Shown: positions 4,829 through 63,232 of the stretch, piece after piece
Layout of the letters: each line of letters begins with the position of its first letter
Numbering within the stretch: position 1 is the stretch's first letter
Assembly (NCBI GenBank): GCA_964017185.1
Contig: OZ024875.1
Span: 32,683,456 to 32,747,455, forward strand
DNA: 64,000 nucleotides
Direction: 5' to 3'
Source: Rugalucina vietnamica
Taxonomy: Eukaryota > Mollusca > Bivalvia > Lucinida > Lucinidae
The notes under the pieces: model-generated
Told to the model about the DNA's origin: nothing
Databases searched by the model: none
The model's input: the letters and a program-made list of their open reading frames with translations, nothing else
Translations under genes and position numbers: made by a program

Positions 4829-4919
4829 GTTCCAGATGATACATCTCGAAGGAAGTGTTTGGTGCCTTGCATACTTATATTATCACCAAGCCTGAGTTAA
4901 AGACTGGGCTTATCACTGT
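4829..4919 (+). pseudogene. NPRL2 exon 2 duplicate, frameshifted
   Basis: This is a second copy of exon 2 with an intact acceptor (TTGTTTTAG) and donor (GTAAGT) but 91 nt instead of 92. One G is missing in GATGATACATC compared with GATGAGTACATC, which shifts the frame. The 3' half resembles the array units more than the real exon. The intron sequence upstream (from about 4690) also matches that before the real exon 2. No exon 1 or exon 3 lies nearby, so it is a dead fragment of a segmental duplication. Confidence 0.9.
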
Positions 4920-7096
4920 GTAAGTTTGATGCCTTGCATACTCACATTATCAACACGCCGGAGTTACAGATCAGGCTTATCACTGTGTAAGTTTGATGCC
5001 TTGCATACTCACATTATCAACACACCGGAGTTACAGACTAGGCTTATCACTGTGTAAGTTTGATGCCATGCATCCTTATATTATCCCCAAGCCAGAGTTA
5101 CAGGCCAGGCTTATCACTGTGTAAGTTTGATGCCTTGCATACGCATATTATCACCAAGCCTGAGTTACAGACCAGGCTTATCACTGTGTAAGTTTGATGC
5201 CTTGCATACTCACATTATCAACACACCGGAGTTACAGACTAGGCTTATCACTGTGTAAGTTTGATGCCGTGCATCCTTATATTATCCCCAAGCCAGAGTT
5301 ACAGGCCAGGCTTATCAGTTATCACTGTGTAAGTTTGATGCCTTGCATACTTATATTATCACCAAGCCTGAGTTACAGACCAGGCTTATCACTGTGTAAG
5401 TTTGATGCCGTGCATACTATATTATCACCAAGCCTGAGTTACAGACTGGGCTTATCACTGTGTAAGTTTGATGCCTTGCATATGCATATTATCACCAAGC
5501 TGGAGTTACAGACCAGGCTTATCACTATGTAAGTTTGATGCCTTGCATACTTATATTATCACCAAGCCAGAGTTACAGACTAGGCTTATCACTGTGTAAG
5601 TTTGATGCCTTGCATACTTATATTATCACCAAGCCAGAGTTACAGACTAGGCTTATCACTGTGTAAGTTTGATGCCTTGCATACTTACATGTATATTATC
5701 CCCAAGCCAGAGTTACAGACCAGGCTTATCAGTTATCACTGTGTAAGTTTGATGCCTTGCATACTTATATTATCACCAAGCCTGAGTTACAGACCAGGCT
5801 TATCACTGTGTAAGTTTGATGCCTTGCATACTTATATTATTAGCTCGCCTGCACAAAGTGCATAGAGCTATTGTAGTCACCTCGGTCGTGCGCGTTTACG
5901 TTTACGTGTGCGTCCGCGTCACACTTTCGGTTAAAGTTTTTTTATAAGTCTATATCTCTTGACCATGTTGATGGATCAAGTTGATACTTTGCATGTTGCT
6001 AGATATTGGTCTGAAGTTTTACGCAGTACCATCATGACCCACCCTGGGTGACCTTGAGGTCAAGGTCACGGACTTAGAAATTTTGTGTTTAAGTTTTCGG
6101 TTAATGTTTTTGTAAGTCTATATCTCTTGACCATATTGATGGATTGAGTTGATACTTTGCATGTTGCTAGATATTGGTCTGTAGTTTTACGCAGTACCAT
6201 TATGACCCACCCTGGGTGCCTTGAGGTCAAGGTCACGGACTTAGAAATTTTGTGTTTAAGTTTTTGATTTAAGTTTTTGTAAGTCTATATCTCTTGACCA
6301 TGTTGATTGATCGAGTTGATACTTTGCATGTTGGTAGATATTGGTCAGAAGTTTTATGCAGTACCATCATGACCTACCCTGGGTGACCTTGAGGTCAAGG
6401 TCACAGACTTAGAAATTTTGTGTTAAATTTTTAGTTAAAGTCTAAATCTCTTGAACATGTTGATGGATAAAGTTGATACTTGCATGTTGATAGATATTGG
6501 TCTCGGGTTTTATGCTGTACATCACAACTCACCTGGATGACCTTGAGGTCAGGGTCACGGACTTGGAAGTTTTGTGTTTAAGTTTTGGTTAATGTTTTTA
6601 TAAGTCTATATCTCTTGAACATGTAGATTGATCAAGATGATACTTTGCATTGGTCTGAAGTTTTATGTTGTACCATCATGACCCACCTGAGTGACCTTGA
6701 GGTCAAGGTCATGGGTCATAGATTTTAACAGATGTAGTGGCAAAGCACAATTCAGGCGAGCTACGCTGTCCTGCGACAGCTCTTATCACCAAGTCGGAGT
6801 TACAGACTAGGCTTATCACTGTGTAAGTTTGATGCCTTGCATACTCATATTATCACCAAGCCGGAGTTACAGACCAGGCTTATCACTGTGTAAGTTTGAT
6901 GCCTTGCATACTTATATTATCACCAAGCCAGAGTTACAGACCAGGCTTATCACTGTGTAAGTTTGATGCCTTGCATACTCATATTATCACCAAGCCAGAG
7001 TTACAGACTAGGCTTATCACTGTGTAAGTTTGATGCCTTGCATACTTATATTATCACCAAGCCAGAGTTACAGACTAGGCTTATCACTGTGTAAGT
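4920..7096 (+). repeat. 67-bp exon-2-derived minisatellite (copy 1, 18 units, interrupted)
   Basis: Units start at 4926, 4993, 5060, 5127, 5194, 5261, 5335, 5402, 5468, 5535, 5602, 5669, 5749, 5816, 6829, 6896, 6963 and 7030. Most spacings are exactly 67 bp; two units carry a 7-bp duplication (TTATCAG TTATCAC) and one of these also has 6 extra bases. The unit starting at 5816 is split by a 946-bp transposon (5840-6785). Sub-types exist: some units read CAACACGCCGGAG and others CACCAAGCCTGAG. The array lies in the non-functional copy of the NPRL2 segment. Long open frames across it are by-products of a 67-bp period (201 bp per three units), not genes. Confidence 0.95.
5840..6785 (+). mobile_element. 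AGCTCGCC composite element splitting the 67-bp array
   Basis: It starts TTAGCTCGCCTGCAC with a hairpin back to AGAGCTATTG and ends with CAGGCGAGCTACGCTGTCC then the hairpin to GACAGCTCTTA. Inside are about five tandem units of roughly 170 bp, each with TATCTCTTGACCATGTTGAT, GATACTTTGCATGTTG and TGACCTTGAGGTCAAGGTCA. Removing the element restores an intact array unit (TTATATTA joined to TCACCAAG) with no target duplication, which fits insertion between T and T. Confidence 0.8.
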
Positions 7097-7132
7097 TGGA
7101 TGCAAAACTTGCCCTTGCTAAATATACACCTG

Positions 7133-19292: not shown

Positions 19293-19666
19293 TCATAGGG
19301 CACTAGATTTTCCTTTGGAGGATCTAATATGAACAGCAGCTACTCGCTTCTGAATTTCACTTGAAGCAACCTTATACTTCTGTACACTTTTCTCAGATCT
19401 ATGTCCAGTCCTTTGCATTATTTCTTGCTCATCCACCCCTGCCATGTAGAGTTGTGTCACACACGTTCTTTTACCGCTATGATTGGTATAATTCCCAGGA
19501 AGTTCAGCATGTGCCCATATTACTTTTATCATGTTTTTATGTTTATTTACTCCAATGACTTGACTGCCATAGCGTATAGGGAGTCCAGCTAGTGGTCTTC
19601 GGTAGAAAGCTCCTCTATTTAACGCCACCAAATATTTCTTAAAAGATCTGCAATTGGTTTTCTCAT
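19293..19666 (-). CDS. Crypton-like tyrosine recombinase, C-terminal exon
   Basis: The minus-strand exon begins after a T-rich acceptor (TTTTTTTTCAG) and ends at a stop. The protein reads FKKYLVALNRGAFYRRPL, then YTNHSGKRTCVTQLYMAG, VDEQEIMQRTGHRS and VQKYK. This is the catalytic end of the DUF3504/Crypton-type tyrosine recombinases: a His in NHSGKR, a TGHRS box and a terminal Tyr. The position that usually holds Arg (HSLR) is Lys here (HSGK) with Arg next to it. It would cut and join DNA if intact. Metazoan relatives include both transposons and domesticated genes such as KIAA1958 and the ZMYM group. Confidence 0.7.
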
Positions 19667-19689
19667 CTGAAAAAAAAAACACCCAAAAA

Positions 19690-19925
19690 ACACACCATCA
19701 AGAAGACATGTCCGTGAAATAAATACCCCCTTGAACCCCTATTTTATACAGTAAAACAGGAGTTTACAGGGATGTGCCTATCCAAAGCATAGATTGTGGG
19801 TACTCGTTAAAACCGCCTCAGCGAGGCGGTTCTCAAGTGTTCCTACAATTAATGTTTTGAGCACATGAAATAAACATATAATTTTTCTAATGAGATTTCA
19901 ATTTTTACAGAGCTGCAATGATCTC
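19690..19925 (-). mobile_element. Palindromic-core MITE
   Basis: It reads in reverse: CATCAAGAAGACATGTCCGT at one end, GTATTTTACTG-type TATACCCC block, core AACCGCCTCAGCGAGGCGGT. It lies in the intron of the Crypton-like gene. Confidence 0.75.
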
Positions 19926-38420: not shown

Positions 38421-38587
38421 TTTATAATTGGACGAGGATCTGGTAAAAGGGACTTTCGAGCATTCAAGTACATTTATACTATTACATTTAAAAAAAAAAC
38501 ATCTGAATGTGAAATATTTGCTCTGATACTTATGCTTAACTGCTTTGATATTGTAACACAATCCAAGACACATACATTGTATATTTT

Positions 38588-39170
38588 TTGCGAAACAAAG
38601 TTGTTTATATCATGTATGTTGCCATGCCATCAACAAACTTGTTGATTCTTATCATTTTGGCTGGAGATATCGAAATGAACCCAGGCCCCAGGTTCCAATT
38701 CCGCACGTGCAAGAAGTATTGCAAAGCGGCCGAGAAAGCAGTTAAATGTGAAGATTGCGAGAAAAATTTCCATGCGTCTTGCGTAAATCTTGGTCCCGTT
38801 GAGTTACAAAAGATTGAGTCGGGTAATGATTCTTGGTATTGTTCAAACTGCAAAGCTGAGTGCAGCCTATGCAGTGGTGCTGTTTTGAATTCCCATAAGG
38901 CTGTCCAGTGTGACAAATGTGAAATGTGGGTGCACAATAACTGTTCTTTTATGTCAGACTCAAGAGTATGAAACAATGCAAAACTCAAACTGTACATGGA
39001 TTTGCCCAAAATGTGACTTTTTCAATTTCTCAGGCTCTTTTTTCAATGGACAGTTTAACTTGGAAAGTGAAAAAGGTACAAGTAGGCAAAGATCAGGAAA
39101 AGGCGCAATCAGAAAAAGATTCCCACTCCAAAAACCGAGGTGGGAAAAAAAAAACACTAACAATCAGGTA
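38588..39170 (+). pseudogene. CR1-type LINE ORF start: 2A-like motif plus PHD-type zinc fingers
   Basis: After the possible starts at 38588, 38615 or 38627 the protein reads STNLLILIILAGDIEMNPGP. DxExNPGP is the 2A ribosome-skipping motif; N-terminal 2A sequences after a hydrophobic stretch are known in CR1-like LINEs of sea urchin, amphioxus and molluscs. Then come two Cys/His-rich fingers: CKKYCKAAEKAVKCEDCEK with HASC and WYCSNC, and CSLCSGAVLNSHKAVQCDKC with WVHNNC and WICPKC. A one-base frameshift near 38968 breaks the second finger. Such proteins bind nucleic acid or help the retrotransposon RNA particle. The copy is dead. Confidence 0.8.
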
Positions 39171-39529
39171 CTTATACCATGAAACATATCGTAAGCCGAA
39201 TGAGCAGCTATTTTCCCAATAGGTGGCCACTCAGTTACCTTAACTAAAACTATGAAAACACACATAAGGCGCCAACAGCACAAAAAAATTTAAACACCAA
39301 GACATAAAACAAAAAGAACCACCACAGAAGTATCGCCTTGGAACGATCACTAACACAAAGTCACTGGCGGGCTTAAACCAGTTTTATAGGCGCCAAACCT
39401 CAGCTTCTGCAGTGGTTTTGTTATACACAAATATAAACAAATAAGGAAAATCATGTTAACAAAATATATATAGGTACCAATAGGTTTGACCCACTTGCGA
39501 AAGGTCATGAAACCAAGCCCACTGAAACC

Positions 39530-40567
39530 TTGACTAGCAAAAACAGTTTTATTAGTGGTCTGAAATATTCCAATATCAACATAAACAGTATAAGAGGCCA
39601 AAAACTTGAGTTGTTGGCCTTCATTGCTTTTCATCAATCTCAGATTTTGGCGATTCAGGAGACAAAAATTGACAATTCCATATTAACGCCTGAGTTATTT
39701 CCGGAATCTTTTCCATACAGCGTGTACAGAAAGGATAGAACCCTAAATGGTGGTGGCGTTATGCTGCCACACATGCCCCTCACAGAATTGGACAATGACT
39801 CAGAGTCAATTTGGGTCAAACGTTTTGTAAATAAGAAAACTCACTTTGTGGCTAGCTGGTATCGACCACCTGTCGATGGTCATTTACCAGTATCGGACAA
39901 TGGAAATGACTTATTGAATTCCCTGGAAAAGTTTGACAATTTATTTAGAGAACAGCTTGACAAAATCAAAAATATTAATAAAGGCAACAAACCCCCAGCC
40001 CCCCCCCCCCCCTTAATTCATGTTTTAGGTGATTTCAACTTTAGAGATATTGTATGACCGGACAGACTCAGCAAATCTGGGTCATCATTGTGTCAGACGG
40101 AGGGTCAGATTTTTATAGATATCATGAATGACCATGGTTTGGAACAATTAGTCAATTTCCCCACCAGAGAAAAAATACTTTGGACTTAATTTTGACCTCT
40201 CTTCCTGGTCAGTTTGTAGACATTCATTCCCCGGATAAGCTCAGTGATCATGGCATTGTTTCTGGCACATTGAATTGCTATCCCCCCTATAAAGAAACCT
40301 AGGAGAAAAGTGTATCGTTATCAGAAAGGTGATTATGAATCTATGAGAGCAGAAACACTTAAATTTGCAAAGGAAAGATACTTCAACGGTTACTCAGATA
40401 CTCGGTCGGTCCAGGAAAATTTCAATCTCATTACAACGTTTATTCAGGAATCTGCAGATAAACATATCCCCTCAAAAACTAGTCGCTCAGTTTCCTCTGT
40501 CCCTTGGATAACACATGAAATAAGAAGGAAGATTCGCAGAAAAAAATGCAACTCATGCAAAAGCTAA
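39530..40567 (+). pseudogene. LINE endonuclease domain (AP type), broken; reverse transcriptase missing
   Basis: The frame from about 39536 gives NININSIRGQKLELLAFI, ILAIQETKID (catalytic Glu in QETK), VASWYRPP and VLGDFNFRD (GDFN), hallmarks of the apurinic endonuclease that nicks target DNA for CR1/L2/Jockey-type LINEs. A TGA replaces Trp at 40055-40057, and single-base shifts follow near 40170 and 40295. Further pieces include SPDKLSDHGIVSG with the SDH motif, and SSVPWITHEIRRKIRRKK. The copy stops at 40567 before any reverse transcriptase motif, next to a (TG)n run. Confidence 0.85.
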
Positions 40568-42517: not shown

Positions 42518-42598
42518 ATGGCTGAGAGAGATGGAACAATTAGGTGTATATTTTTCAGCGAATTTCATCCTAAAGCGGGACCAAAAATTACACATCAG
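42518..42598 (+). CDS. NPRL2: NPRL2 exon 1 (start codon, 27 codons)
   Basis: The exon runs from an ATG in the context caatATGgct to CAG followed by the donor GTATTA. It encodes [20 protein letters not shown] and then GPKITHQ, the start of the longin-like domain of NPRL2. The ATG is chosen because it leads straight into the conserved IFFSEFHP block at the same distance as in vertebrate NPRL2. The 5' UTR and transcription start cannot be placed. The exon ends in phase 0. Confidence 0.92.
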
Positions 42599-51500: not shown

Positions 51501-54500
51501 GTCAGTGAGGTTGGGCTACTAGTGGGGCTACCAGTCGGGGGTATACGTGCCTCTCAAGGCACTTTTTCTAGTTTGATGTGAACCATCATTGGGTTGGGGG
51601 ATTGATTGCATTAGGTTTTGGAGCAGATTGTATCAAAATTAGCTCTCATAGACTTACAATGGGAAAAACTAAAAAAATCTTCTTCTCTGAAACCACTAGG
51701 CCCACAGCTTTGATATTTGTTATATGGCAATGGCTAATGGTCCTCTTTATAAATTGTGCCATTCATGCCCCTGGGGTCAAATTTGGCCTCGCCCCGGGGG
51801 TCAATAGTCTCCATAGACTTTCTATGGGAAATCATTAAAGCATCAATATCTCCAAAACCAGAAGGGGGATCTTGATCAAATTACACACACAGCATCACTG
51901 TGTAGTAGGAAAGGTTACATATTGTTTTGGGCAGATCGGACTGGAACTCTGGTTGCCATGGCAACATACATATTTTAATGGAAAAAAAAATCAGAAATCT
52001 TATTTTCTGAAACCACAGGGCCCACAGCTTTGATATTTGGTATGTAGCAATGGCTTATGGTCCTCTACATAAATTGTGCCAGCCATGCCCCTGGGATCAA
52101 ATTTGGCCACGCCCAGGGTGTCGATAGTCTCCATAGACTAACAATGGGAAAAACTAAAAAAAATCTTCTTCTCTGAAACCACAAGACCCAGAGCTTCTAT
52201 ATTTGGTATGTAGCAATGTTTGTTAGTCCTAATTATAAATTGTGCCAACCATGCCCCTGGGATCAAATGTGGCCACGCCCCGGGGGGTCGTTAAGTCTCC
52301 ATAGACTTTCTATAGAAAACCATTCAAAATTCAGTGTCTCCACAGCCAGGAGGTGGATCTTGATCAAATTACACACACATCATGACTTGACAGTAGGAAA
52401 GGTTGCATATTGTTTTTGGGCAGATCGGACTGGAACTCTGGTTGCCATGGCAACATATGTTTTAATGGAAAAAATAATCAAAACTCTTCTTCTCTGAAAC
52501 CACAAGGCCCATAGCTTTGATATTTAGTATGCTTCAATGGCTAATGGTCCTCTACATAAATTGTGCCAGCCATGCCCCTGGGGTCAAATTTGGCCATGCC
52601 CAGGGGGCTGATAGTCTCCATAGACTTACAATGGGAAAAACTAAAAAAATCTTCTCTGAAACCAGATGGCCCAGAGCTTCTATACTTTGTATGTAGCAAT
52701 GTTTGGTAGTCCCCATTATAAATTATGCCAATCATGCCCCTGGGGTCAAATTTGGCCATGCCCCGGGAGTCAATAGTCTCCATTGACTTAACTAGGAAAA
52801 CATTCAAAATTCAATATCTCCAAAGCCAGTAGGCAGATCTTGATCAAATTACACACACAGCATCACTGGGCAGTAGGAAAGGTTGCATATTGTTTTGGGG
52901 CAGATCGGACTGGAACTCTGATTGGTCTATTCTGAATGAAATAATAGAATTGATTTAATTCCCATGAACTTACAATGTGATAATCTCTCAGGTGAGCTAC
53001 AGGACCAATGGTCCTCTTGTTCTTATTTTGATCCAAAACATAGATTGTTGGTTCTCTTTAGAACTCTTTTTTTTATATTATTTTTTTTTATATAATGAAA
53101 TATCCTATGTTGCATGGGCGACTTTTCGTTCGTAATGTAGGATGTCACTCAATGTTCACTGTAATTATGTAATTGGTTTCATTACCATGTATAATAATAT
53201 TTCATTTGTTTTAGGTTCCCGATGAGTACATCTCAAAGGAATTGTTCGATGCATTACATACGTACATTATCACCAAGCCAGAGTTACAGACTAGGCTTAT
53301 CACTGTGTAAGTTTGATGCCTTGCATACTTATATTATCACCAAGCCGGAGTTACAGACTAGGCTTATCACTGTGTAAGTTTGATGCCTTGCATACTTATA
53401 TTATCACCAAGCCGGAGTTACAGACCAGGCTTATCACTGTGTAAGTTTGATGCCTTGCATACTCATATTATCACCAAGCCGGAGTTACATACCAGGCTTA
53501 TCACTGTGTAAGTTTGATGCCTTGCATACTCATATTATCACCAAGCCGGAGTTACATAATAGGCTTATCACTGTGTAAGTTTGATGCCTTGCATACTTAT
53601 ATTATCACCAAGCCGGAGTTACAGACCAGGCTTATCACTGTGTAAGTTTGATGCCTTGCATACTTATATTATCACCAAGCCGGAGTTACATAATAGGCTT
53701 ATCACTGTGTAAGTTTGATGCCTTGCATACTTATATTATCACCAAGCCGGAGTTACAGACCAGGCTTATCACTGTGTAAGTTTGATGCCTTGCATACTTA
53801 TATTATCACCAAGTTACGGACTAGGCTTATCACTGTGTAAGTAATAGTCATCAAATAATCATATTTTATGAAAGTTTTGTCATTACAAAAACTTGCCCAT
53901 GCCATAATTATGCAGAGATTCTTTTCAGAAGAAAAAAATAAAGATTTTATTGAGAAAAAAAAATGATTTTTTTTTTAATATTTTCGCTCAAAACATACAT
54001 TGTGGGTACATGTTAGAACCACCTCACTGAGGCAGTTCTAATGAGTACCCACAATGTATTTTTTGGATCAAAAGTAAAGAAAATATGTATACCCCTGTTA
54101 ACCGCAGTTTTACTACATAAAAGTGGGGTTTTTTCACGGACATGTTTTCCTGATGACTAGTTTTCAAATAATCATATTTTATGAAAGTTTTGTTAGTGTT
54201 CTTTTAAAAGACATTGATGTAGGTATGTATTAGGATAAGGAATATTTCATTGAAGTGCTTGTAATGCATTTTACAGGCGATCGGTCATGTCAGCCCAAAA
54301 CAGTCTCGGCCCAAGATGCTTAGACCATTATTCAATCTGGGAGACTTCTAATGCCTAGATCATATTTAGCTCACCTGAGCCGAAGGCTCACAAGGTGAGC
54401 TTATAGTATAGTAGTCGAGCCGGCGTCCATGCGTCGTCGTCAACATTTTCAAAAAACTTCTCCTCTGAAGCTGCCAGGCCGAATCTTTTAATATTTCACA

Positions 54501-57500
54501 TATAATAGCATCTTCAGGTAGGGGGAACGAATATTTGTGTTTTTTATTTTGCTCGGATAAGAACTCTGGTTGCTATGGCAACTTGAAGTTTCCATTGACT
54601 TGTATGGAGAAAAAGTGGAAATTGGCATTTTCCGTTGTCAGGCTGGAGATATTTGAATTTTGTTTTTAGCTCGCCTGCACGAAGTGCACAGAGCTATTGT
54701 TGTCACCTCGGTCGTCCGTGTTTACGTGTACGTCCGCGTCCCCGTCCGCGTCACATTTTTAAAATTGTTATATCTTGATAGTCACTGACCAGAAATCATT
54801 CATATTTGGAACATTGCTACATATGAGGGTCCTCTGTGATTTAGTGTGAAGGGACCCGTGGGGTCATGCCTGGGGGCGGGGCTAGAGGTCAATATCTAGG
54901 ACACCTTTGTACAATGCTCAGATGCTGTGTTAGTTTCTCATCAACTGTTAAGCCTAGAACTGTCAAACCTTACATAAGGCTTCTCCTCGATGTCCCGACT
55001 GGGCACCCACATTGACCTACTGACCTTGACCTATATTTCATGCTCCAGTGACTTTGTCATTTTTTTAGCCAACCCTAAATATCTCATTAACTATAAAGCC
55101 TACAACCATCAAACCTTGCATATGGCTTCTCCTCGATGTCCCTACTTTGCACCCACGTTGATCTAGTGACCTTGACCTATATTTCGTGCTCTAGTGACTT
55201 TGTCATTTTTGAAGCCAACTCTTAATATCTCATCAACTATAAAGCCTACAACCATCAAACCTTGCATATGAATTCTCCTCGATGTCCCGACTCGGCATCC
55301 ACATTCACCTAGTGACCTTGACCTATATTTCGTGCTCTAGTGACTTTGTCATTTTTGAAGCCAACCCATAATATCTCATCAACTATAAAGCCTACAACCA
55401 TCAAACCTTGCATATGGCTTCTCCTCGATGTCCCGACTCGGCACCCACATTCACCTACTGACCTTGACCTATATTTCATGCTCCAGTGACTTTGTCATTT
55501 TTTAAGCCAACCCTTAATATCTTATCAACTATAAAGCCTACAACCATCAAACCTTGCATATGGCTTCTCCTCGATGTCCGGACTTTGCACCCACATTGAT
55601 CTAGTGACCTTGACCTATATTTCGTGCTCTAGTGACTTTATCATTAAAGTTTTTAGAAGTCCATATCTCTTGAACATGTTGATGGATCAAGTCGATACTT
55701 TGCATGTTGGTAGATATTGGTCTGAAGTTTTATGCAGTACCATCATGACCCACCCTGAGTGACCTTGAGGTCAAGGTCACAGACTTAGAGAATTTTTTTG
55801 TTAAAGTTTTCGGTTAAAGTTTTTAGAAGTCTATATCTCTTGAACATGTAGGTTGATCAAGTTGATACTTTGCGTGTTGGTAGATATTGGTCTGAAGTTT
55901 TATGCTGTACCATTACGACCCACCCTGGGTGAACTTGAGGTCAAGGTCATGGCCTTAGAAATTTTTGGTTAAAGTTTTGGGTTAAAGACTTTTGAAGTCT
56001 ATATATCTCTATGTTGATGGATCAAGTTGAAACTTTGCATGTTTGTGGATATTGGTCTGAAATTTTATGCTGTACCATCACAACCCACCTGAGCGACCTT
56101 GAGGTCAAGGTCATGGGTCATAGATTTTGATAAGTTTAGTGACAAAGCACAAGTCAGGCGAGCTACGCTGTCCTGCGACAGCTCTTATTACATAAATGTT
56201 TATTGAGTAGTCCTTCATGTTTAAGGCAACTTTTGTAAATATCACTATATTTGTTTTGTTGCTATAGCAACATAAAGGGTAAATTTTCGAAAAAAATATT
56301 CAAAAATCTTCTTCTCAGAAGCCGTATGGGGGATGAAGCTGAAAGTTAGCATACATGCTTATGACGTTAGCCTGTACAAAGTTTGTGTTTTTTATTGTCT
56401 TTGTCCAACTATTTTGGTTGCTATGGTAACTTGAAGTTTCCATTGACTTATAAGGCAAAAAGTGGAAATTTGCAATATCTGCCGTTTCATTGAGGATATT
56501 GAAATTTTGTTTTTGCATAAATGTTTATTGAATAGTCCTCCCCGTTTTAGGCAACTTTTGTCGAAATCGCTTTATTCGTTTGGTTGCTATAGCAACGTAA
56601 AGGGTAAATTTTCGAAAAAATATTCAAAAATTTTCTTCTCAGAAGCTGTAAGGCGGATGAAGCTGAAACTTTGCATACATGCTTATGATATTAGCCTCTA
56701 CAAAGTTTGTGTTTTTATTGTCCTTGTCCCACTACTTTGGTTGCTATGGCAACTTAAAGTTTCCATTGACTTAAAATTAAGACGAAAAGCGGAAAATTGC
56801 AATTTTTTGAAAAGTATTGCAGCCTGAGACCTGAAAAGTGGTAGATGCAAACAACTTATGGAGTAGATGAAGGTATGTGATTAATTTAGGCCAAGGTCAT
56901 CTCTTGACCTTGAAGGGTCTGTCATCCATACACACTTTTCAAAGATCTTCTCTGAAACAGCTTGGCCAATCAAAGTGAAATTTTATGTGGAGCATCCCTG
57001 GGTAGTGGGGACGAAAATTTGATCGCAAAATCTGGGTCACATGACCAAGATGGCTGCCACACCCATACATGGTAAAAACCACTCAAAAATCTTCCTCTCC
57101 AGGACGGGCAGGCCGATTTTCACGAAACTTGGTTGGTAGCATTTGGGACTCTAGCCCATCGTAGTTTGATCAAATAATGACCCTAGGATGACCTTGACCT
57201 ATTTTACGTCAATGTCAATTTTGGAAACATAGGGTTTTACATGGGAAAAAGTGAAAAATATGGATTTTTTGAAAACTATTGCAGCCTGAGACCTGAAAAG
57301 TGGTAGATGCAAAACAACTAATGAAAGTATGTGATTAATTTAGGTCAAGGTCATCTCTTGATCTTGGCCGATCGGTCGTCTACACACACTTTTCAAAGAT
57401 CTTCTTCTCTGAAACCGCATGGCCAATCAAACTGAAATTTTATGTGGAGCATCCCTGGGTAGGGGTAACGAAAGTTTGATCCCGAAATCTAGGTCACATG

Positions 57501-60500
57501 ACCAAGATGGCCGCCGCGCCCATATATGGTAAAAACCACTCAAAAATCTTCTTCTCCAGAACCGGCAGGCTGATTTTCACGAAACTTGGTATGCAGCATT
57601 TGGGACTCCAGACCATCATAGTTTGATAAAATGATGACCCTAGGATGACCTTGACCTATTTTACGGCAAGGTCAATTTTGGAAACATAGGCTTTTACATG
57701 GGAAAAAGTGAAAACAATGGATATTTTGTAAACTAAATGCAGCCTGAGACCTGAAAAGTGGTAGATGCAAACAACTAATAGAGTAGATGAAGGTATGTGA
57801 TTAATTTAGGTCAAGGTCAATTTTGGAAACATAGGCAAACATGGAAACATGAAGAAAAGTGACAACTAGGTCTCAGGTAAGCGTTTATAGGACCAATGAG
57901 CCTATGGTAACTATTGCAGCCATAGACCTGAAACATTACCAAGATGGCCGTCATACCCAGATAGGGTAAAAAAAAAGAGAAAAAATTCTCTTTGTCCAGT
58001 GACTGTACTTGTTAACTCTCAGGTGAGCGATTGTTGCCCTTGGGCTACTTGTTTTAGATAAAATTACCGGTAACTGTAGTTGATAATCGAAAAAAGAAAT
58101 GTTAATAAATGAGCCGCCCCATGGGAAAACCAACAATCTGCAGATGTGAAAACAAAGGCACAGATCAGCTTCGCAGTAACTGCGAAGCTGATCAGCACCT
58201 TTGTTTTCACTACACGGACAGTACAACTCCTACTTTCTAAATCCAAAAGTTTAAGTCTCTAGCCATCTTCTGTGCTTGTAAAGCCCGGTTTGTGTCGGAT
58301 CTGTTCAGAAACCACATTGTTTGTTTTCCCACGAGGCAGCTCAAATCTTTTGTCCATTTCAGAAATGCCCTAGGCCATAAGATTGTTGGCTGTCCTGTTT
58401 GTATTGAGGATAAGAAATACGAGAGAAATGCCCTGATGTTTAATGTGTGTTTTGTGTTCGACTCATCAGCTCGACTGACACATATCTATGGACAAGCAGT
58501 GAAGAAATTGGCGACATATCTAACTCAACTTGAGGTTTGTAAACATTGACTATACACTACACCATCTGTCAGTCAAAATACACACTCACCAGTACATTTT
58601 ATATAATGACAAATATCCAGAACATTTAAATGCATGTAGCTTATTCTTAATACATGTTACATGTATGTTTAATTTTGTGTAAACGAATACATTATTTTTT
58701 GCTTATCCTTGATTTAAATGAGAGGCCGAGGGATAGTATAAATCACCTTTGGTCAATCTTTAAATGTATCCTTGTTACAGGGTTACAAACCTGGCCCATA
58801 AAAAATTTTCGTGCTCAACTCAGCTGAGCATGAAATTTAAACTGCTCATAAATGACAAAATAACCCAAATAAATTGAAATTTCAGATTGAGATCACCAAA
58901 GCCAGTATTTATCCTGCTTATAAATGTTAAAATGCCAACAGTTGTTAGCATTTTAACATTTATGAACAGGATAAATTTTAGTCTCAGCTGAGCTGAGAAT
59001 GAAAAAAGTTGTATAATCTCTGGGCCTGGTCCACCTGTACACCTGTCTGTTACAACCACAAAAAGTGAGTGTAGGTTTGAAGTTTTTGAACGACACATCA
59101 ATTTTGAACCCAAAGACACTGATCAGTCACATGGTCACTATATGTCAGCTGATCTTCACCTTTGCTTTTTTATATGCAAAGATCATGCTTTCTTATAATG
59201 AGATGATATTGTCATCACATGCATGTTATATTTATGTACAGCATAGTCATACACATACTTTCAGTTTCAGTTGAAGAAAGAACTCAATAATCAATTTATG
59301 TCTGATATAAAACATTGGCATTTCACAAGTACCCACAATTTTTCAGCTTGAAAACTCCTTCCTGTCTGACGAGAAGAAGAAAGAAAGCATACCCCAGTTC
59401 CTGAGAGAAGTTCTCATAAAACTTAATGACAGAGGAAGTTGCAGGCTGTTCATGGGTAAGGATGGTCAGGATCAAGCATGGCTTTTATATATGTCCCCCC
59501 AACCGAAGGTGGGGGACAAATTGTTTTTGATGCGGATCCCGTCGGCGTCTGCGTCCGCGTCTGCGTCTGCTTAGCTTCTTTCCGACGCGATATCTTTTGA
59601 ACCAGTGGATAGATTTTGACCAAACTTGCATAGATACATGGTTGGGAAGGGGGAAAGAGTTGATTAGATTTTGGTGACCTTGACCTAATTTTCAAGGTCA
59701 CCAGCCCATGATCGAATTAGGTTTTCTGACATGATATCTTCTGACAAATGAATGGATTTTGACCAAACTTGCACAAGAGCATTGTTGGGAGGATGCTCAG
59801 TTGATTAGATTTTGGTGACCTTGACCTAATTTTCAAGGTCAGGAGTCCATAAAAACTGTTGAAATTAGTCTGTCCAACGCAATATCTTGTAAACCAATTG
59901 ATGGATTTTGACCAAACTTGCACAGAAGCATTGTTTAGAGGAGGCTCAGAGTTGATTAGATTTTGGTGACCTTGACCTAATTTTCAAGGTCACGAGTCCA
60001 TAAAAAATGTTGAAATTAGTCTTTCCAACGCGATAACTTGTAAACTAATCGATGGATCTTGACCAAACTTGCACAGAAGCATTGTTGCGAGAAGGCTCAG
60101 AGTTGATTAGATTTTGGTGACCTTGACCTAATTTTCAAGGTCACGAGTCCATAAAAAATGTTGAAATTAGTCTTTCCAAAGCAATATCTTGTAAACCAAT
60201 CGATGGATTTTGACCAAACTTGCACAGAAACATTGTTGGGAGGAGGCTCAGAGTTGATTAGATTTTGGTGACCTTGACCTAATTGTTAAGGTCACGAGTC
60301 CATAAAAAATGTTGAAATTAGTTTTTCCGATATGGTATCTTGTAAACTAATTGATGGATTTTGACCAAACTTGCACAGAAACATTGTTGGGAGGAGGCTC
60401 AGAGTTGATAAGATTTTGGTGATCTTGACCTAATTTCCAAGGTCACTAGTCAAAAACTGTTGAAATTAGTCTTTCTGACGCGATATCTTGTAAACTAATT

Positions 60501-63232
60501 GATGGATTTTGACCAAACTTGCACAGAAGCATTGTTGGGAGGAGGCTCAGAGTTGATAAGATTTTGGTGACCCTGACCTAATTTCCAAGGTTCATAACTG
60601 TTGAAATTAGTCTTTCGGACGTGATAACTTGTAAACCAATTGATGGATTTTAAACAAACTTGCACAGAAGCATTGTTGTGAGGAGGTTCAGAATTTTAGA
60701 CAGGGTCCAAAACTAGTTTAAACTACCACACCTTACAGAACAAGATGGGCATGGTGTCTTCCATAGAAAAGCTTCATATCACAAGGTAACTACACTTCAA
60801 TTACTAAATGGTTGGGGGGACATTGTTTTCCTCAGAAAACACTGTTTTAATTATATGAGCCCAATCACAAGAAAAAGGGCCTGGGGGGTTTCCAACCAGG
60901 TTGGACACAAACTGGCATCTACAGTCAGAAAATAGGGCTAGATACTTGAAATTTTGGATTTAAGTAGAAAAGGAACTATACTTTTAATCTAAAGAAATTA
61001 AGCACTGATCAGCTGATTTGGGACTTTGTTCTTTCATATGTAAAAAGCCAGTTTTCCCATGATGCAACAGATATTATACTGGATCTCAGCTATTTAATGG
61101 ACACAAATACAATAAATCAAAACAAAATGCAAACTGACATGCATGTATGTCAATGCTTTCAAAATGTAACATTGTACAAAATAACATGTCTCGAGTAAAC
61201 AACCAAGGTCAGTTATTTTATACCAATATGACCCTCTAAGTGACCTTGTTAGGCAAATTATTTTGCTCAAATTCTAAGTTTCTACAGATGAGTCATGCAC
61301 TATCCACCTGAAGGTTTCCCAGGTTATTGAGGACCCCCACCCCGTACAGGACCATGATGTACCCATCTTTCTGGGCAAGAAAACTCAGTTCAACAGCAAC
61401 TCTTGGGACCTTACCACACAACAGGTACTTGATGAGCCGTGAGACAAGAAAAATGGTCTTCGGGGTTTCCGACCAAGTCCGACACAATTTGGCCTGTACA
61501 GTCACAGAAGCAGGCTAGAGACTTGAAATTTTGGCTATTGGTAGAAGAGGAATTACACTATCCGAATAGCAAAAACAAAGGAGCTGGTCAGCTGTGCAGT
61601 TGCTGCACAGCTGATCTGCGCCTTTCTATTGCGCATATGCAAAAATCTGGTTTTCTCATGATGCGGCTCAAATTATAGATTTGGCAGGAAGGAAATTCTT
61701 CATGCATAATATAATTAGATTTTGAAATACAAAAATGATGTCTGTGAATACATATCACCCACTATATAACGTTAGTGTTATAGAGATGTTGTGTTTAACT
61801 CTAGACATGCACATATTTAGGGAGCATGGTGGCTTTGTGTAGGACTCTAAATCAAGAGATCCCAAGTTAGAACCCTGCTCCACAGGGTAGAGACCTTGAG
61901 CAAGACCCAGTTTATCTCCATAGGATTGCTGCAATTTACACTAATGTCCTTCTATTCATCTTAAGGTGATACCCTACATAGATGGTTTCAACCACGTTGC
62001 TAAAGTAGCTGCAGAAGCTGATATTGAGATAAATCTAGTCAAGGCATGCCTACAAAATTTACTGTAAGTACCATTGCGACAACTTGCTCATGCAATATAC
62101 AGAGATTTTTTTTTTCATTTGTAAAAATTGAAAATTTCATTGGAAGAAAATTGATATCTGTAATATTTTTGCTCAAAACATAGATTGTGGGTACACATAA
62201 GAACCACCTCGCCAAGGCAGTTATAATGAGTTCCCACAATTTATGATTTGGATTAAAAATACAAAAATAAGAAAAAATTGTAAACTCCTGTACACCCGCG
62301 TTTCACTACATAAAAGTGGTGGGTAAGGGTGTATTTATTCCATGGACGTGTTTTCCTGATGTATGGAATTGCTTTTGTGGAAGAAGGTAAGAAGCTGCGT
62401 AAATTTAATCTGACTTATTTCATACTCTGACTTTAAAGATTGGTAACTTAAAGGTAAAGTGTAGGACTCAGAATTGAGAGGCCCTGGGTTTGATCCCTTC
62501 TACTTTATTGTGTCCCTATGCGAAAAGTGAGCCACCTCGTGGGAAAACCAACAATGTGGTGTCCGAACAGGTCCGACACAAACCGGCCTGTACAAGTACA
62601 GAAAAGAGCTAGAAACTTGAAATTTTGGATATAAGTAAAAGAGGGATTGTACTATTTGAGTAGCGAAAACAAAGGCGCTGTTCAACTTCGCGGTTACCGC
62701 GAAGCTGATCTGCGTCTTTGTTTTCGCCTATGCAGATTGTTGGTTTTCCCATGAGGCGGCTCAAATATGTACGCCCCATAGTCATTAGGAAAACTTGCTC
62801 TTGCAATATAAAGAGATTTGGATCAAAAAGAAAGAAAAATAGGTATACCCTTGCATACCCCAGTTTTTCTATATAAAAGTGGTGTTAAAGGGGATATAGA
62901 ATTTACAGACATGTTTTACTGATGACTGGAAATACCCAGGAAGTACTGGTTTTATTTCAGGCATGTCTATCAAGTTGTTGATTAGAAATCAGATATGTTA
63001 CTTCAAAGAGAGGTTGCTTGAAATTTATCTATTCATCTTGCTATTTATTATAACAAACATAACTTCTCTGTACAGTCACAGAAGATAGATTTTAGGTTTA
63101 GGAGGTAGAGGAATAGTATAATCGATACAGTAACAGTGGATTAAGTAAATTGTTCTGTTAATGACGTTTATTGCAATGCTTCTTTTTCTTTTCAGACATT
63201 TTGGTGTAATTACTATTATCTCAATTTTCCAG
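42518..63232 (+). CDS. NPRL2: NPRL2, GATOR1 complex subunit (partial, exons 1-7)
   Basis: Seven exons join in phase: 42518-42598, 53215-53306, 58363-58534, 59347-59455, 61288-61424, 61966-62063, 63196-63232 (726 nt, 242 codons). The product matches NPRL2, the subunit that with NPRL3 and DEPDC5 forms GATOR1, the lysosomal GTPase-activating complex for RagA/B that turns TORC1 off when amino acids are short. The N-terminus holds the family signature [16 protein letters not shown], then [13 protein letters not shown] and [16 protein letters not shown]. The Arg in KKYERNA (residue 79 here) aligns with human Arg78, the catalytic arginine finger. Human NPRL2 is about 380 residues, so roughly 140 C-terminal residues lie past the window edge. 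Introns are 0.3-10.6 kb and filled with repeats. I see no frameshift or premature stop in these exons. Identification is from memory of the family and the splice structure; confidence is high. Confidence 0.93.
42599..43067. other. NPRL2 intron 1, 5' part
   Basis: No repeat or alternative exon that I can support. CCATGCTCATTAATGTTGG and AT-rich DNA only. Confidence 0.4.
43068..43420. repeat. Inverted repeat in NPRL2 intron 1
   Basis: GGGTTCCACTTCATTCCACT (43098) and AGTGGAATGAAGTGGAACCC (43371) are exact complements. The pairing continues outward through T-rich/A-rich flanks and inward to TGTAGGCAA. It would fold into a long hairpin in the pre-mRNA; probably a MITE. Confidence 0.72.
43952..45950. 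mobile_element. 2-kb Tc1/mariner-like element with no transposase
   Basis: CAGGATGTTAAGAAAGTTCG and CGAACTTTCTTAACACCCTG are inverted ends (27 bp paired with one mismatch), flanked by TA at both sides (43950-43951, 45951-45952). The 2-kb interior is AT-rich with no open frame of note, and it houses a second inverted-repeat element. It lies in NPRL2 intron 1. Confidence 0.85.
44364..44981. mobile_element. Nested MITE with about 55-bp inverted ends
   Basis: CAGTCAGGGACAAAACCTGA and TAGGTTTTGTCCCTGACTG form long inverted ends that continue through ACAAGTTATAAAAAAATAAC. AATAG is repeated on both sides (44359-44363, 44982-44986), a 5-bp target duplication. It sits inside the mariner-like element. 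Confidence 0.85.
45953..46490. other. NPRL2 intron 1 stretch with unrecognised open frame
   Basis: The frame from 46148 ([20 protein letters not shown] and onward) has fairly coding-like composition up to about 46270 but no domain I recognise. Its 3' part resembles 34810-34870, so it is more likely repeat sequence. Confidence 0.3.
46490..46740 (+). mobile_element. LINE 5' leader fragment, internally deleted
   Basis: It matches 37748-37880 and then 38250-38345, skipping about 370 bp between them: GACACTTTTATTACCAGC, GAGCCGGTAAAGATCATTCG, CACGTGCCGCATTA, GAAGATTGTATTCGGAAAC, TTTTCTTGCAATG. Confidence 0.5.
46741..48180. other. NPRL2 intron 1 stretch, no gene
   Basis: AT-rich with CACAATATGGCGGTGGATCG at 47850 and CGACCATTTTGAATCGCC-like sequence at 47636. 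Nothing else supportable. Open frame 46859-47194 has no domain. Confidence 0.35.
48180..48400 (+). pseudogene. LINE reverse transcriptase C-terminal remnant (copy 2)
   Basis: The frame reads [35 protein letters not shown] and [29 protein letters not shown] followed by a short tail is the usual C-terminus of CR1/Jockey-like reverse transcriptases, where [10 protein letters not shown] also occurs. Only the last 60 or so codons are left. It lies inside NPRL2 intron 1 in sense orientation. Confidence 0.7.
48418..48625 (+). mobile_element. Small palindromic element (TTCGCTACCTG family), copy 2
   Basis: Same element as at 2434-2643. The left end has decayed to TTCGTTACCT, the right end is AGGTCGCGAA. 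GTTCGCTACCTG and CAGGTAGCGAAA arms are clearer here. Confidence 0.6.
48663..49450 (+). mobile_element. Palindromic-core MITE split by the piggyBac-like MITE
   Basis: The left part (TTGCAATATACAGAGATTTT) stops at 48694, and the right part resumes at 49210 with AAAAGTTGTGAAAAATG, the decayed core GAACTGCCTCAGCAAGGTGG and AGGTATACCCCTGTAAACCC. It is the ortholog of 2684-2950. Confidence 0.75.
48695..49209. mobile_element. piggyBac-like MITE
   Basis: CCTTTAGCATGCTG and CAGCATGCTAAAGG are perfect 14-bp inverted ends, flanked by TTAA on both sides (48691-48694, 49210-49213). The matching site in the other duplication copy (near 2706-2716) has a single TTTTTAAAG, an empty target. TTAA duplication and CCY-starting ends fit piggyBac. 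The interior has no transposase and repeats GACCGCAGTCGCCT near the right end. Confidence 0.88.
49682..49960 (+). mobile_element. Palindromic-core MITE private to copy 2
   Basis: ATTACAAAAACTTGTCCATG to ACGGACATGTTATCCTGATG. In copy 1 (3676-3690) ACTTACCCAGCTTG is uninterrupted. No clear target duplication beyond CC. Core GAATCTAGGCGGTTC has lost one arm. Confidence 0.75.
50314..53019 (+). mobile_element. AGCTCACC-ended element with CCATGCCCCTGG core units
   Basis: Ends TTAGCTCACCAGAGCCGAAG and CAGGTGAGCTACAGG then hairpin AGGACCAATGGTCCT and CTTG. Units of about 370 bp contain CTCCATAGACTTACAATGGG, GGTTGCCATGGCAACATA and TTCTTCTCTGAAACCAC. It holds a TATACCCTCGG element (50433-51571). Removing it restores CTATTT joined to TTCTTATT without duplication. 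Confidence 0.8.
50433..51571 (+). mobile_element. TATACCCTCGGC element with terminal hairpin
   Basis: ATTATACCCTCGGCATTTAT and its hairpin partner GCCGACGGGTATATAG open it, followed by a GTTCGTTCGTTAGTTCG tract. It has about four units with GGGGCTAGAGGTCAAAATCT and CCCTATAGGGTTTGC, and ends CGGGGGTATACGTGCCTC with a hairpin to AAGGCAC. The plan (hairpin, simple tract, tandem units, hairpin) is the same as in the AGCTC families. Confidence 0.7.
53215..53306 (+). CDS. NPRL2: NPRL2 exon 2
   Basis: The acceptor is TTTTAG after a T-rich stretch and the donor is ACTGT followed by GTAAGT, a perfect consensus. The 92 nt encode [17 protein letters not shown] and then [13 protein letters not shown], leaving two bases that combine with the first A of exon 3 to give Val. 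The exon is followed with no gap by a 67-bp tandem array derived from its own 3' end. Compared with the array units, the exon differs at six codons over the shared 21, all synonymous (TTC/TTT, GCA/GCC, TTA/TTG, ACG/ACT, TAC/TAT, CCA/CCG). Confidence 0.93.
53307..53846 (+). repeat. 67-bp minisatellite made from NPRL2 exon 2 plus its splice donor (copy 2, 8 units)
   Basis: Units begin with TTGATGCC at 53313, 53380, 53447, 53514, 53581, 53648, 53715 and 53782, an exact 67-bp period. Each unit is exon-2 coding sequence ([20 protein letters not shown]) followed by the donor GTGTAAGT. The last unit has a short deletion. The array sits directly at the 5' end of NPRL2 intron 2, so the transcript carries nine near-identical 5' splice sites in a row. 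In the NPRL2 reading frame each unit hits TAA straight after the LITV codons. Units carry variants such as CATAATAGG in place of CAGACTAGG. Confidence 0.96.
53876..54160 (+). mobile_element. Palindromic-core MITE
   Basis: GTCATTACAAAAACTTGCCC to CACGGACATGTTTTCCTGAT. Core GAACCACCTCACTGAGGCAG. The flank TCAAATAATCATATTTTATG with GAAAGTTTTGT appears on both sides (53852, 54166), a direct repeat of about 35 bp, far longer than a usual target duplication. Confidence 0.75.
54366..58051 (+). mobile_element. Large AGCTCACC-ended chimeric element in NPRL2 intron 2
   Basis: It starts TTAGCTCACCTGAGCCGAAG, then has GGTTGCTATGGCAAC core units like those at 31464-34438 (to about 56800), then GATGGCCGCC units like those at 35814-37006, and ends CAGGTGAGCGATTGTTG with the hairpin GCCCTTGGGC then TACTTG. 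So two subfamilies are fused. The AGCTCGCC element 54666-56187 is nested inside. Confidence 0.8.
54666..56187 (+). mobile_element. AGCTCGCC element, nested, mixed cores
   Basis: Ends TTAGCTCGCCTGCACGAAGT and GCTGTCCTGCGACAGCTCTTA. The first 900 bp are a different set of about five units of 170 bp with CTTGCATATGGCTTCTCCTC and GTGACCTTGACCTATATTTC; the rest are the usual TGACCTTGAGGTCAAGGTCA units. The empty sequence TTGTTTTTACATAAATG exists in the paralog at 33549, and removal gives exactly that with no duplication. Confidence 0.85.
58109..58346 (+). mobile_element. GAGCCGC MITE abutting NPRL2 exon 3
   Basis: ATGAGCCGCCCCATGGGAAA to TTTTCCCACGAGGCAGCTCAA. Its central palindrome AGCTTCGCAGTAACTGCGAA with GCTGATC flanks is intact. 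It ends 16 bp before exon 3. Confidence 0.85.
58363..58534 (+). CDS. NPRL2: NPRL2 exon 3 (arginine-finger exon)
   Basis: The acceptor is CCATTTCAG and the donor is GAG followed by GTTTGT, a weak donor. The 172 nt encode [35 protein letters not shown] and the helix [11 protein letters not shown]. The conserved Arg of YERNAL is present. A GAGCCGC-type MITE ends only 16 bp upstream of the exon, so the branch point of this intron probably lies inside the MITE. Confidence 0.93.
58535..59346. other. NPRL2 intron 3
   Basis: No gene. GCCAACAGTTGTTAGCATTT sits in an inverted repeat: CTGCTTATAAATGTTAAAATG (58915) pairs with CATTTTAACATTTATGAACAG (58949). AGCTGAGCATGAAATTTAAA near 58820 and its complement-like AGCTGAGCTGAGAATG near 58985 extend the symmetry to about 180 bp, probably an old MITE. 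Confidence 0.5.
59347..59455 (+). CDS. NPRL2: NPRL2 exon 4
   Basis: The acceptor is ATTTTTCAG and the donor is ATGG followed by GTAAGG. The 109 nt encode [18 protein letters not shown] and [18 protein letters not shown], matching the block after TTLE in vertebrate NPRL2. It ends in phase 1, and the leftover G completes an Asp codon with exon 5. A composite repeat starts about 35 bp after the donor. Confidence 0.9.
59490..60823 (+). mobile_element. TATGTCCCCCC element with 150-bp tandem units
   Basis: ATGTCCCCCCAACCGAAG folds back to GGTGGGGGACAAATTG, followed by a GTCTGCGTCCGCGTCTGCG tract. About eight units of 150 bp follow, each with GATTTTGACCAAACTTGCAC, AGCATTGTTGGGAGGAGGCT and GTGACCTTGACCTAATTTTC. 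It ends GGTTGGGGGGACAT. It lies in NPRL2 intron 4, about 35 bp from the exon 4 donor. Confidence 0.82.
60854..61070 (-). mobile_element. GAGCCGC MITE, degraded
   Basis: ATGAGCCCAATCACAAGAAA and GTTTTCCCATGATGCAAC mark the ends. Interior has GTTGGACACAAACTGGC and AGCACTGATCAGCTGATTTG. Confidence 0.65.
61288..61424 (+). CDS. NPRL2: NPRL2 exon 5
   Basis: The acceptor is TTTCTACAG and the donor is CAG followed by GTACTT. The 137 nt encode (D)[18 protein letters not shown], the conserved HDVPIFL and [11 protein letters not shown]. In vertebrate NPRL2 the same positions read DESNTIHLKV and QWDLTTQQ. A reverse-oriented GAGCCGC MITE begins about 6 bp after the exon end, just past the splice donor. 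Confidence 0.93.
61431..61673 (-). mobile_element. GAGCCGC MITE abutting the NPRL2 exon 5 donor
   Basis: GATGAGCCGTGAGACAAGAA to GGTTTTCTCATGATGCGGCTCAAAT. It starts 6 bp after the end of exon 5, so only GTACTT separates them. Confidence 0.85.
61818..61960 (+). mobile_element. tRNA-derived SINE remnant before NPRL2 exon 6
   Basis: GGGAGCATGGTGGCTTTGTG (A-box-like), AGATCCCAAGTTAGAACCCT (B-box-like), then GACCTTGAGCAAGACCCAGT. It runs to within a few tens of bases of the exon 6 acceptor. Confidence 0.55.
61966..62063 (+). CDS. NPRL2: NPRL2 exon 6
   Basis: The acceptor is CATCTTAAG and the donor is ACT followed by GTAAGT. The 98 nt encode [20 protein letters not shown] and [12 protein letters not shown], matching the ILPYIDGF..ISAEADVELNLV region of vertebrate NPRL2. 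It leaves two bases (CT). A SINE remnant lies just upstream, and a palindromic MITE begins about 8 bp after the exon end. Confidence 0.92.
62072..62362 (+). mobile_element. Palindromic-core MITE abutting the NPRL2 exon 6 donor
   Basis: CATTGCGACAACTTGCTCAT begins 8 bp after the exon end, right after GTAAGTAC. Core GAACCACCTCGCCAAGGCAG, then GACGTGTTTTCCTGATGT at the end. Confidence 0.82.
62455..62526 (+). mobile_element. SINE fragment cut by a MITE
   Basis: GTGTAGGACTCAGAATTGAG, GCCCTGGGTTTGATCCCTTC (B box) and TTGTGTCCCTATG are the SINE middle; the sequence is cut by the next MITE. Confidence 0.55.
62527..62766 (-). mobile_element. GAGCCGC MITE, well preserved
   Basis: TGAGCCACCTCGTGGGAAAA to TTTTCCCATGAGGCGGCTCA, with core CTTCGCGGTTACCGCGAAGC. 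Confidence 0.85.
62783..62928 (+). mobile_element. Palindromic-core MITE, core deleted
   Basis: TTAGGAAAACTTGCTCTTGC runs straight to GGATCAAAAAGAAAG and AGGTATACCCTTGCATACCC, ending ACAGACATGTTTTACTGATG. Confidence 0.7.
63070..63126 (-). mobile_element. GAGCCGC MITE fragment near exon 7
   Basis: CTGTACAGTCACAGAAGATA and GGAGGTAGAGGAATAGTATA match the outer half of the family on the minus strand. It lies about 70 bp before the exon 7 acceptor. Confidence 0.5.
63196..63232 (+). CDS. NPRL2: NPRL2 exon 7 (last exon in window)
   Basis: The acceptor is TTCTTTTCAG and the donor is CAG followed by GTAAGA. With the two carried-over bases the 37 nt encode [13 protein letters not shown], matching LLYYGVVTLVSILQ in vertebrate NPRL2. 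The exon that should begin with the YSNVY-like sequence is not in the remaining 770 bases, so the gene continues off the right edge. Confidence 0.88.

Follow-up and report, generated by a model that had tools for sequence, protein, structure and literature searches.

Exon 2 of the NPRL2 gene of the bivalve Rugalucina vietnamica (53215-53306) is followed by eight extra copies of its last 61 bases, each with the GTAAGT of its splice donor, so the gene has nine donors at this point. A preliminary description of this DNA had reported the array, and it is real. That description overlooked a second array further upstream, the pseudogene that adjoins it, the fact that the exon and the units differ at synonymous sites only, and the divergence of the ninth donor. 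These observations are probably best explained if the units descend from a coding exon of the kind that the pseudogene now carries, if the two arrays draw on a shared pool of units, and if the working gene is spliced mostly at its first donor, with the other eight as leaky decoys at most. We hold to this explanation as a whole with some confidence, but not with a great deal.

The window, by which we mean the whole 64,000-nucleotide stretch that we analysed, is C7:32683456-32747455 of a 1.09 Gb genome in 47 contigs. The gene is NPRL2 by its Pfam match (NPR2, E = 3.5e-86), and the five best relatives of its protein are all from bivalves, at 64-70% (Ruditapes 70%, Mya 69%, Mactra 66%, Sinanodonta 65%, and Solemya 64%). 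Exon assembly gave 11 coding exons and 389 residues, and all 10 introns have GT donors and AG acceptors. Exons 1 (from the ATG, 42518-42598) and 2 were located with tblastn as well as by assembly, and all of the exons in the window are on the plus strand. Exon 2 is 92 nt long, follows the acceptor TTTTAG, and ends with ACTGT in phase 2; exon 3 (58363-58534) begins at AG|AAATGCC and supplies the rest of the valine codon GT|A, which the intron splits. Exons 4 to 7 are at 59347-59455, 61288-61424, 61966-62063, and 63196-63232, and exons 8-11 are just past the window's end, in stretch L012. When we searched the whole genome with the protein, 40 candidates were scored and 22 matches were listed, all of them on this gene (locus B), on a duplicate within the same window (locus A), or on a short piece on contig C9. 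As far as this search sees, NPRL2 is single-copy, as this is the sole full gene among the matches listed. In an alignment of eight bivalve NPRL2 proteins, which is blind to untranslated decoys, none showed an insertion where exons 2 and 3 meet.

Tandem Repeats Finder (TRF) reports the locus B array as a 67-bp repeat at 53244-53842, with 9.0 copies and a 94% match. The unit consists of the 61 last bases of exon 2 (53246-53306) and GTAAGT (53307-53312), so the first unit (53246-53312) is the end of the exon with its own donor, and the array directly abuts the exon boundary of an intact 11-exon gene. The eight further units (53313-53842) comprise seven of 67 bp and a last one that is shortened to 61 bp by a 6-bp deletion, as found by TRF and unit alignment. 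Each unit ends with the exon's donor (9 of 9 at locus B and all 19 of the units at locus A with a complete 3' end), and 28 of the 38 GTAAGT motifs on the plus strand of the window sit inside the two arrays. At locus B, the donors start at 53307, 53374, 53441, 53508, 53575, 53642, 53709, 53776, and 53837, and each of them reads TGT|GTAAGT. From -9 to +12, donors 1-8 show no differences, and their context runs on as GTAAGTTTG; the ninth (53837-53842) is followed by AATAG and runs on as GTAAGTAATAG. The ninth donor is probably the old start of the intron. We considered whether the repeats might be a chance similarity or an artefact, and rejected this because of the structure of the units and the second locus.

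As the preliminary description had stated, only donor 1 gives NPRL2. Exon assembly through it yields the protein of 389 amino acids, and assembly through any other donor predicts a product of 58 amino acids that ends at a stop. The account of the reason in that description also holds: reading past donor 1 meets GTG TAA at once, and the loss of frame that it expected downstream is borne out in the predicted products. Donors 2-9 would add 67, 134, 201, 268, 335, 402, 469, and 530 nt, respectively, but because the stop directly follows donor 1, each of them leads to the same predicted 58-residue product.

Computed donor strength does not single out donor 1. The U1 pairing of donor 9 is -7.0 kcal/mol, as compared to -5.4 kcal/mol for donors 1-8, and the ten native donors of the gene range from -3.6 to -11.0 kcal/mol. 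Donor 9 also has a higher computed accessibility (0.028, versus 0.002-0.006 for the others). Better pairing in a more open site would favor the end of the array over donor 1, which counts against our explanation, and as donor 9 has the best pairing, some leak into the array is plausible. Secondary structure that hides only the decoys was not seen: all of the donors are computed to be paired for the most part, with the ninth as the most accessible. It is also unlikely that units act as exons of their own: there are no acceptor-like YAGs in 53307-53842 or in 4920-7103, where we required at least 9 pyrimidines in the 12 preceding bases, a test that the true acceptor of exon 2 passes. By this simple pyrimidine count, we rejected the ideas that the units are cassette exons or recursive splice sites. 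The choice between neighboring donors is described as depending on SR proteins and hnRNP A1 (PMC5585400), so the sequence of exon 2 at locus B could matter for donor choice.

Locus A is a truncated direct duplicate of NPRL2 exons 1-2 that lies 48 kb upstream. Its exon 1 is damaged and lies 6.6-6.7 kb before the window (L014 2722-2821); its exon 2 (4829-4919, plus strand) is one base short (GATGATACATC) by sequence comparison and hence frameshifted. Neither tblastn nor the whole-genome protein search found exons 3-11 of this copy. Its array is larger than that of the working gene, with 19 donors (4859-7096) versus 9. The 5' part (4859-5840, plus strand; TRF and donor listing) has 14 donors and one unit that is cut by an insertion, and the 3' part (6783-7096, plus strand) has 5 donors and contains the locus A units that are, on average, nearest to those of locus B in the unit alignment. 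Between the two parts is an inserted repetitive element (5841-6782). Comparison of repeats showed that this element is related to another at 54663-56191 (TAGCTCGCCTG...CTGTCCTGCGACAGCTC); these elements have internal tandem repeats of about 150-170 bp.

Which exon did the units come from? The preliminary description had proposed that a coding exon became a minisatellite. This is only partly right, as the units are not copies of the present exon: the unit consensus carries exon 2 states of another type, which are common to the upstream pseudogene and the chimeric piece on C9. Between exon 2 of the working gene (exon B) and the unit consensus, 6 of 61 sites differ (53247, 53253, 53256, 53262, 53265, and 53280), and all six are third positions and synonymous. 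Six random changes would all be synonymous with a probability of 1e-4 to 7e-4, according to the transition rate that is assumed; if site 53280 is set aside, then it is five of five, with a chance of 6e-4 to 2.4e-3. In contrast to these differences, the variants among the other 26 units (leaving out the two units that are part of exons and the one truncated unit at locus A) include 6 that are synonymous and 16 that are not (Fisher P = 0.0025), which implies that the units evolve without coding constraint. The synonymous-only difference of exon B implies that the full NPRL2 protein is selected for.

Of these six sites, the pseudogene's exon 2 (exon A) agrees with the unit consensus at five. In the eight extra units at locus B, the exon B state is absent from all six. 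Among the 18 locus A units, it occurs in 2 at 53262, in 3 at 53265, and in 8 at 53280, but is not seen at the remaining three sites, so the state of the founder is uncertain, above all at 53280, where the units split three ways. Exon B is 9-13% diverged from its own units. Diversity among units is 0.034 at locus B, 0.083 in the 5' part of the locus A array, and 0.036 in its 3' part, and between locus B and this 3' part it is 0.038. We favor the reading that both arrays draw on one recent pool of units. We also built a tree from 29 short sequences (the units, both exons, and the C9 copy); it is weakly supported (1 of 20 inner branches starred), its locus B units do not form one group yet are more clustered than expected by chance (4 of 500 shuffles were as low), and exon B has the longest end branch. 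The tree would also be compatible with a single origin of the locus B units.

We also compared the two loci outside the arrays. Between exons 1-2 of locus A and those of the working gene (L014 2722-2821 and 4829-4919 versus 42518-42598 and 53215-53306), 23 of 190 sites differ (12.1%), whereas in the adjoining non-coding DNA only 9 of 288 do (3.1%; Fisher P = 2.4e-4). That the exons should be about four times more diverged than their flanks is the reverse of what is expected if locus A is a pseudogene. Farther stretches of intron 1 align at 80-95%, so it may be that the flanks next to the exons are unusually alike. One explanation among others for the contrast between exons and flanks would be that the flanks and the array were converted, while exons that had been converted were purged.

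The evidence on donor choice that comes nearest to a transcript is the piece on C9 (L009 4400-5090, minus strand; C9:52106.4-52107.1 kb). One further match of the 67-bp unit lies here. The piece contains exons 1 and 2 of the locus A type, without the intron: it differs from locus A at 8 of 191 sites and from locus B at 23 of 198, and it shares the one-base deletion of locus A. After the end of exon 2 (CACTGT), it continues with GTGGCC..., which is position 715 of an LTR, and it keeps none of the 67-bp units. The LTR is 1194 bp long (TGTCAC...GTGACA) and occurs on C3, C2, and C15 as pairs separated by 6.45-6.48 kb, as well as in further copies. Of the 10 other fetched copies that contain this stretch, 8 read TTTCAG just before position 715 and 2 read TTTCAT; an eleventh locus, L026, contains another part of the query and did not match. 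At the junction, the last bases of exon 2 thus meet a place where the LTR has an AG acceptor, from which we conclude that donor 1 was spliced to the LTR and that the product was later copied to C9. We also considered that the copy might end at donor 1 because of truncation or a template switch, and set this aside, as other copies of the LTR have an acceptor at the exact spot. The C9 piece is a fossil of at least one use of donor 1, at locus A, and is silent on how frequent such use was. It counts against our explanation that this is one transcript, of locus A rather than locus B, and that only the diversity of the array suggests that locus A already had it when the transcript was made. The LTR is absent from the window and from the adjacent stretches L012, L013, and L014, which suggests that it was on another haplotype or has since been lost.

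The C9 piece is presumably similar to retroposed chimeras that carry an LTR. Like them, it joins spliced host exons to a partial LTR; it differs in that it has LTR sequence at one end only. It ends at the 3' end of the LTR, with a small duplication of GTGAC and no clear target-site duplication. As for the LTR itself, three young pairs (L016-L023) are 99.5-100% identical over about 1.19 kb, have the acceptor at position 715, and have a 5-bp target duplication (GGCAG in L016/L017).

We propose that NPRL2 exon 2, with the first six bases of the intron, was once duplicated in tandem, which a 2-base microhomology (GT) at the junction would fit, and that this grew into a minisatellite. The founder would have been a coding exon of the type that is now in truncated locus A. 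The array of the working gene would come from the same pool: either locus A probably seeded it, or unequal exchange or gene conversion homogenised the two. The presumed direction of transfer would be from A to B. As the single intact gene is under constraint, donor 1 must be used often enough. Together with the fossil, this favors donor 1 as the main site, so splicing in the working gene today would be mostly at the sole donor that makes NPRL2. The eight downstream donors would be leaky decoys at most, and their products, which stop at once, would be expected to decay. Most likely, then, the array at locus B is tolerated clutter with at most some leaky poison splicing.

Minisatellites at exon boundaries with repeated donors are already known from IFI6, CBS, and ABCA7, and the NPRL2 array is of that kind. 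In CBS, the repeat units reportedly act as donors, and a 1995 title by Turri is said to describe IFI6 (6-16) as having a minisatellite with multiple splice donors. Human CBS has a 31-bp VNTR at the boundary of exon 13 and intron 13, named c.1444_1467+7(16_21) (PMC2630376), which we take to mean 24 bases of exon and 7 of intron. As in NPRL2, its units span the end of an exon and the start of an intron, so the two arrays share their anatomy. More units go with lower enzyme activity, according to a source that calls the repeat non-coding (PMC5188458). The NPRL2 array differs in having a unit of 61 + 6 bases, in being in a bivalve gene, in having a second array at a pseudogene, and in being known from sequence only. 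In human IFI6, the units of an exon-end minisatellite serve as alternative donors (PMC4526556), and two downstream units are reported to be used and to give isoforms, whereas the extra donors of NPRL2 all predict a stop. The VNTR in intron 18 of human ABCA7 has a 25-bp unit that starts with the GT of the exon 18 donor (PMC5954066). As in NPRL2, there is a donor in every unit, and, as is predicted for NPRL2, retention of one unit gives a frameshift and stop, but the ABCA7 unit is intronic rather than derived from an exon. In that study, retention of one unit accounts for 2 +/- 1% of isoforms, and VNTR length anticorrelates with expression, with skipping of exon 19 as the main effect of length (PMC5954066). 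For the NPRL2 array itself, we found no paper in the open-licence literature, and none of the listed matches for bivalves, NPRL2, or TORC1 mentioned bivalves.

These human genes bear on the idea that the nine donors compete, so that array length, varying between individuals, would set the share of poisoned transcripts and hence the level of NPRL2 and the activity of TORC1. Length does relate to output in CBS (PMC5188458) and ABCA7 (PMC5954066), all eight extra donors of NPRL2 predict the same immediate stop, and donor 9 pairs with U1 best of the nine. Nevertheless, we think that such tuning is unlikely, if worth keeping in mind: the frameshifting retention in ABCA7 is described as unchanged with length (PMC5954066), and the sole trace of a transcript that we found, the C9 fossil, used donor 1. 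Eight identical sites followed by the strongest one might even suggest that the downstream donors mostly win, and that an allele with strongly reduced NPRL2 survives because little is needed. This seems quite improbable to us given that all of the differences between exon B and the consensus of the units are synonymous, so that the full protein has been selected for, and that there is no second full NPRL2 among the listed genome matches. Another scenario, which we offer as a long shot, is that a decoy array born in a pseudogene was ectopically converted onto the sole working NPRL2, where it would act as a poison-splicing brake of variable length. The exon would have been recoded in response (at up to 6 of about 15 synonymous sites, far faster than its surroundings), which would keep donor 1 ahead of the eight decoys and block conversion into the exon.

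We see very little chance that the array or the second locus is an assembly error. The locus B array is just 0.6 kb and has unit-specific variants; the two loci differ in their flanks, inserts, and exon states; the C9 copy independently bears the locus A states; and an assembly of 1.09 Gb in just 47 contigs does not suggest such problems. It is similarly hard to believe that the repeated GTAAGT is kept for another end, such as binding of U1 to shield intron 2 from premature polyadenylation. The motif is intact in 28 of 28 cases, and a block of 27 columns around the donor has only one variable column (permutation P = 0.0014, for a block that was picked post hoc). But the six donor columns alone give P = 0.11, and the same pattern is seen in the array of the pseudogene. 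We had also considered conservation of the donor in particular, and rejected it because significance appears only in the larger block.

The locus offers a natural test of donor choice by the spliceosome, as a gene that restrains TORC1 here presents it with nine almost identical donors, of which a single one is viable. It also suggests how splice-site clutter can reach a working gene from a related pseudogene that serves as its reservoir, and that fossil cDNAs in genomes can be read as evidence for past splice choices. Elsewhere in the window, open frames at 38549-40057 resemble, by eye, a PHD-type zinc finger and a LINE endonuclease domain, and an open frame at 19293-19697 (minus strand) resembles, by eye, the end of a tyrosine recombinase.
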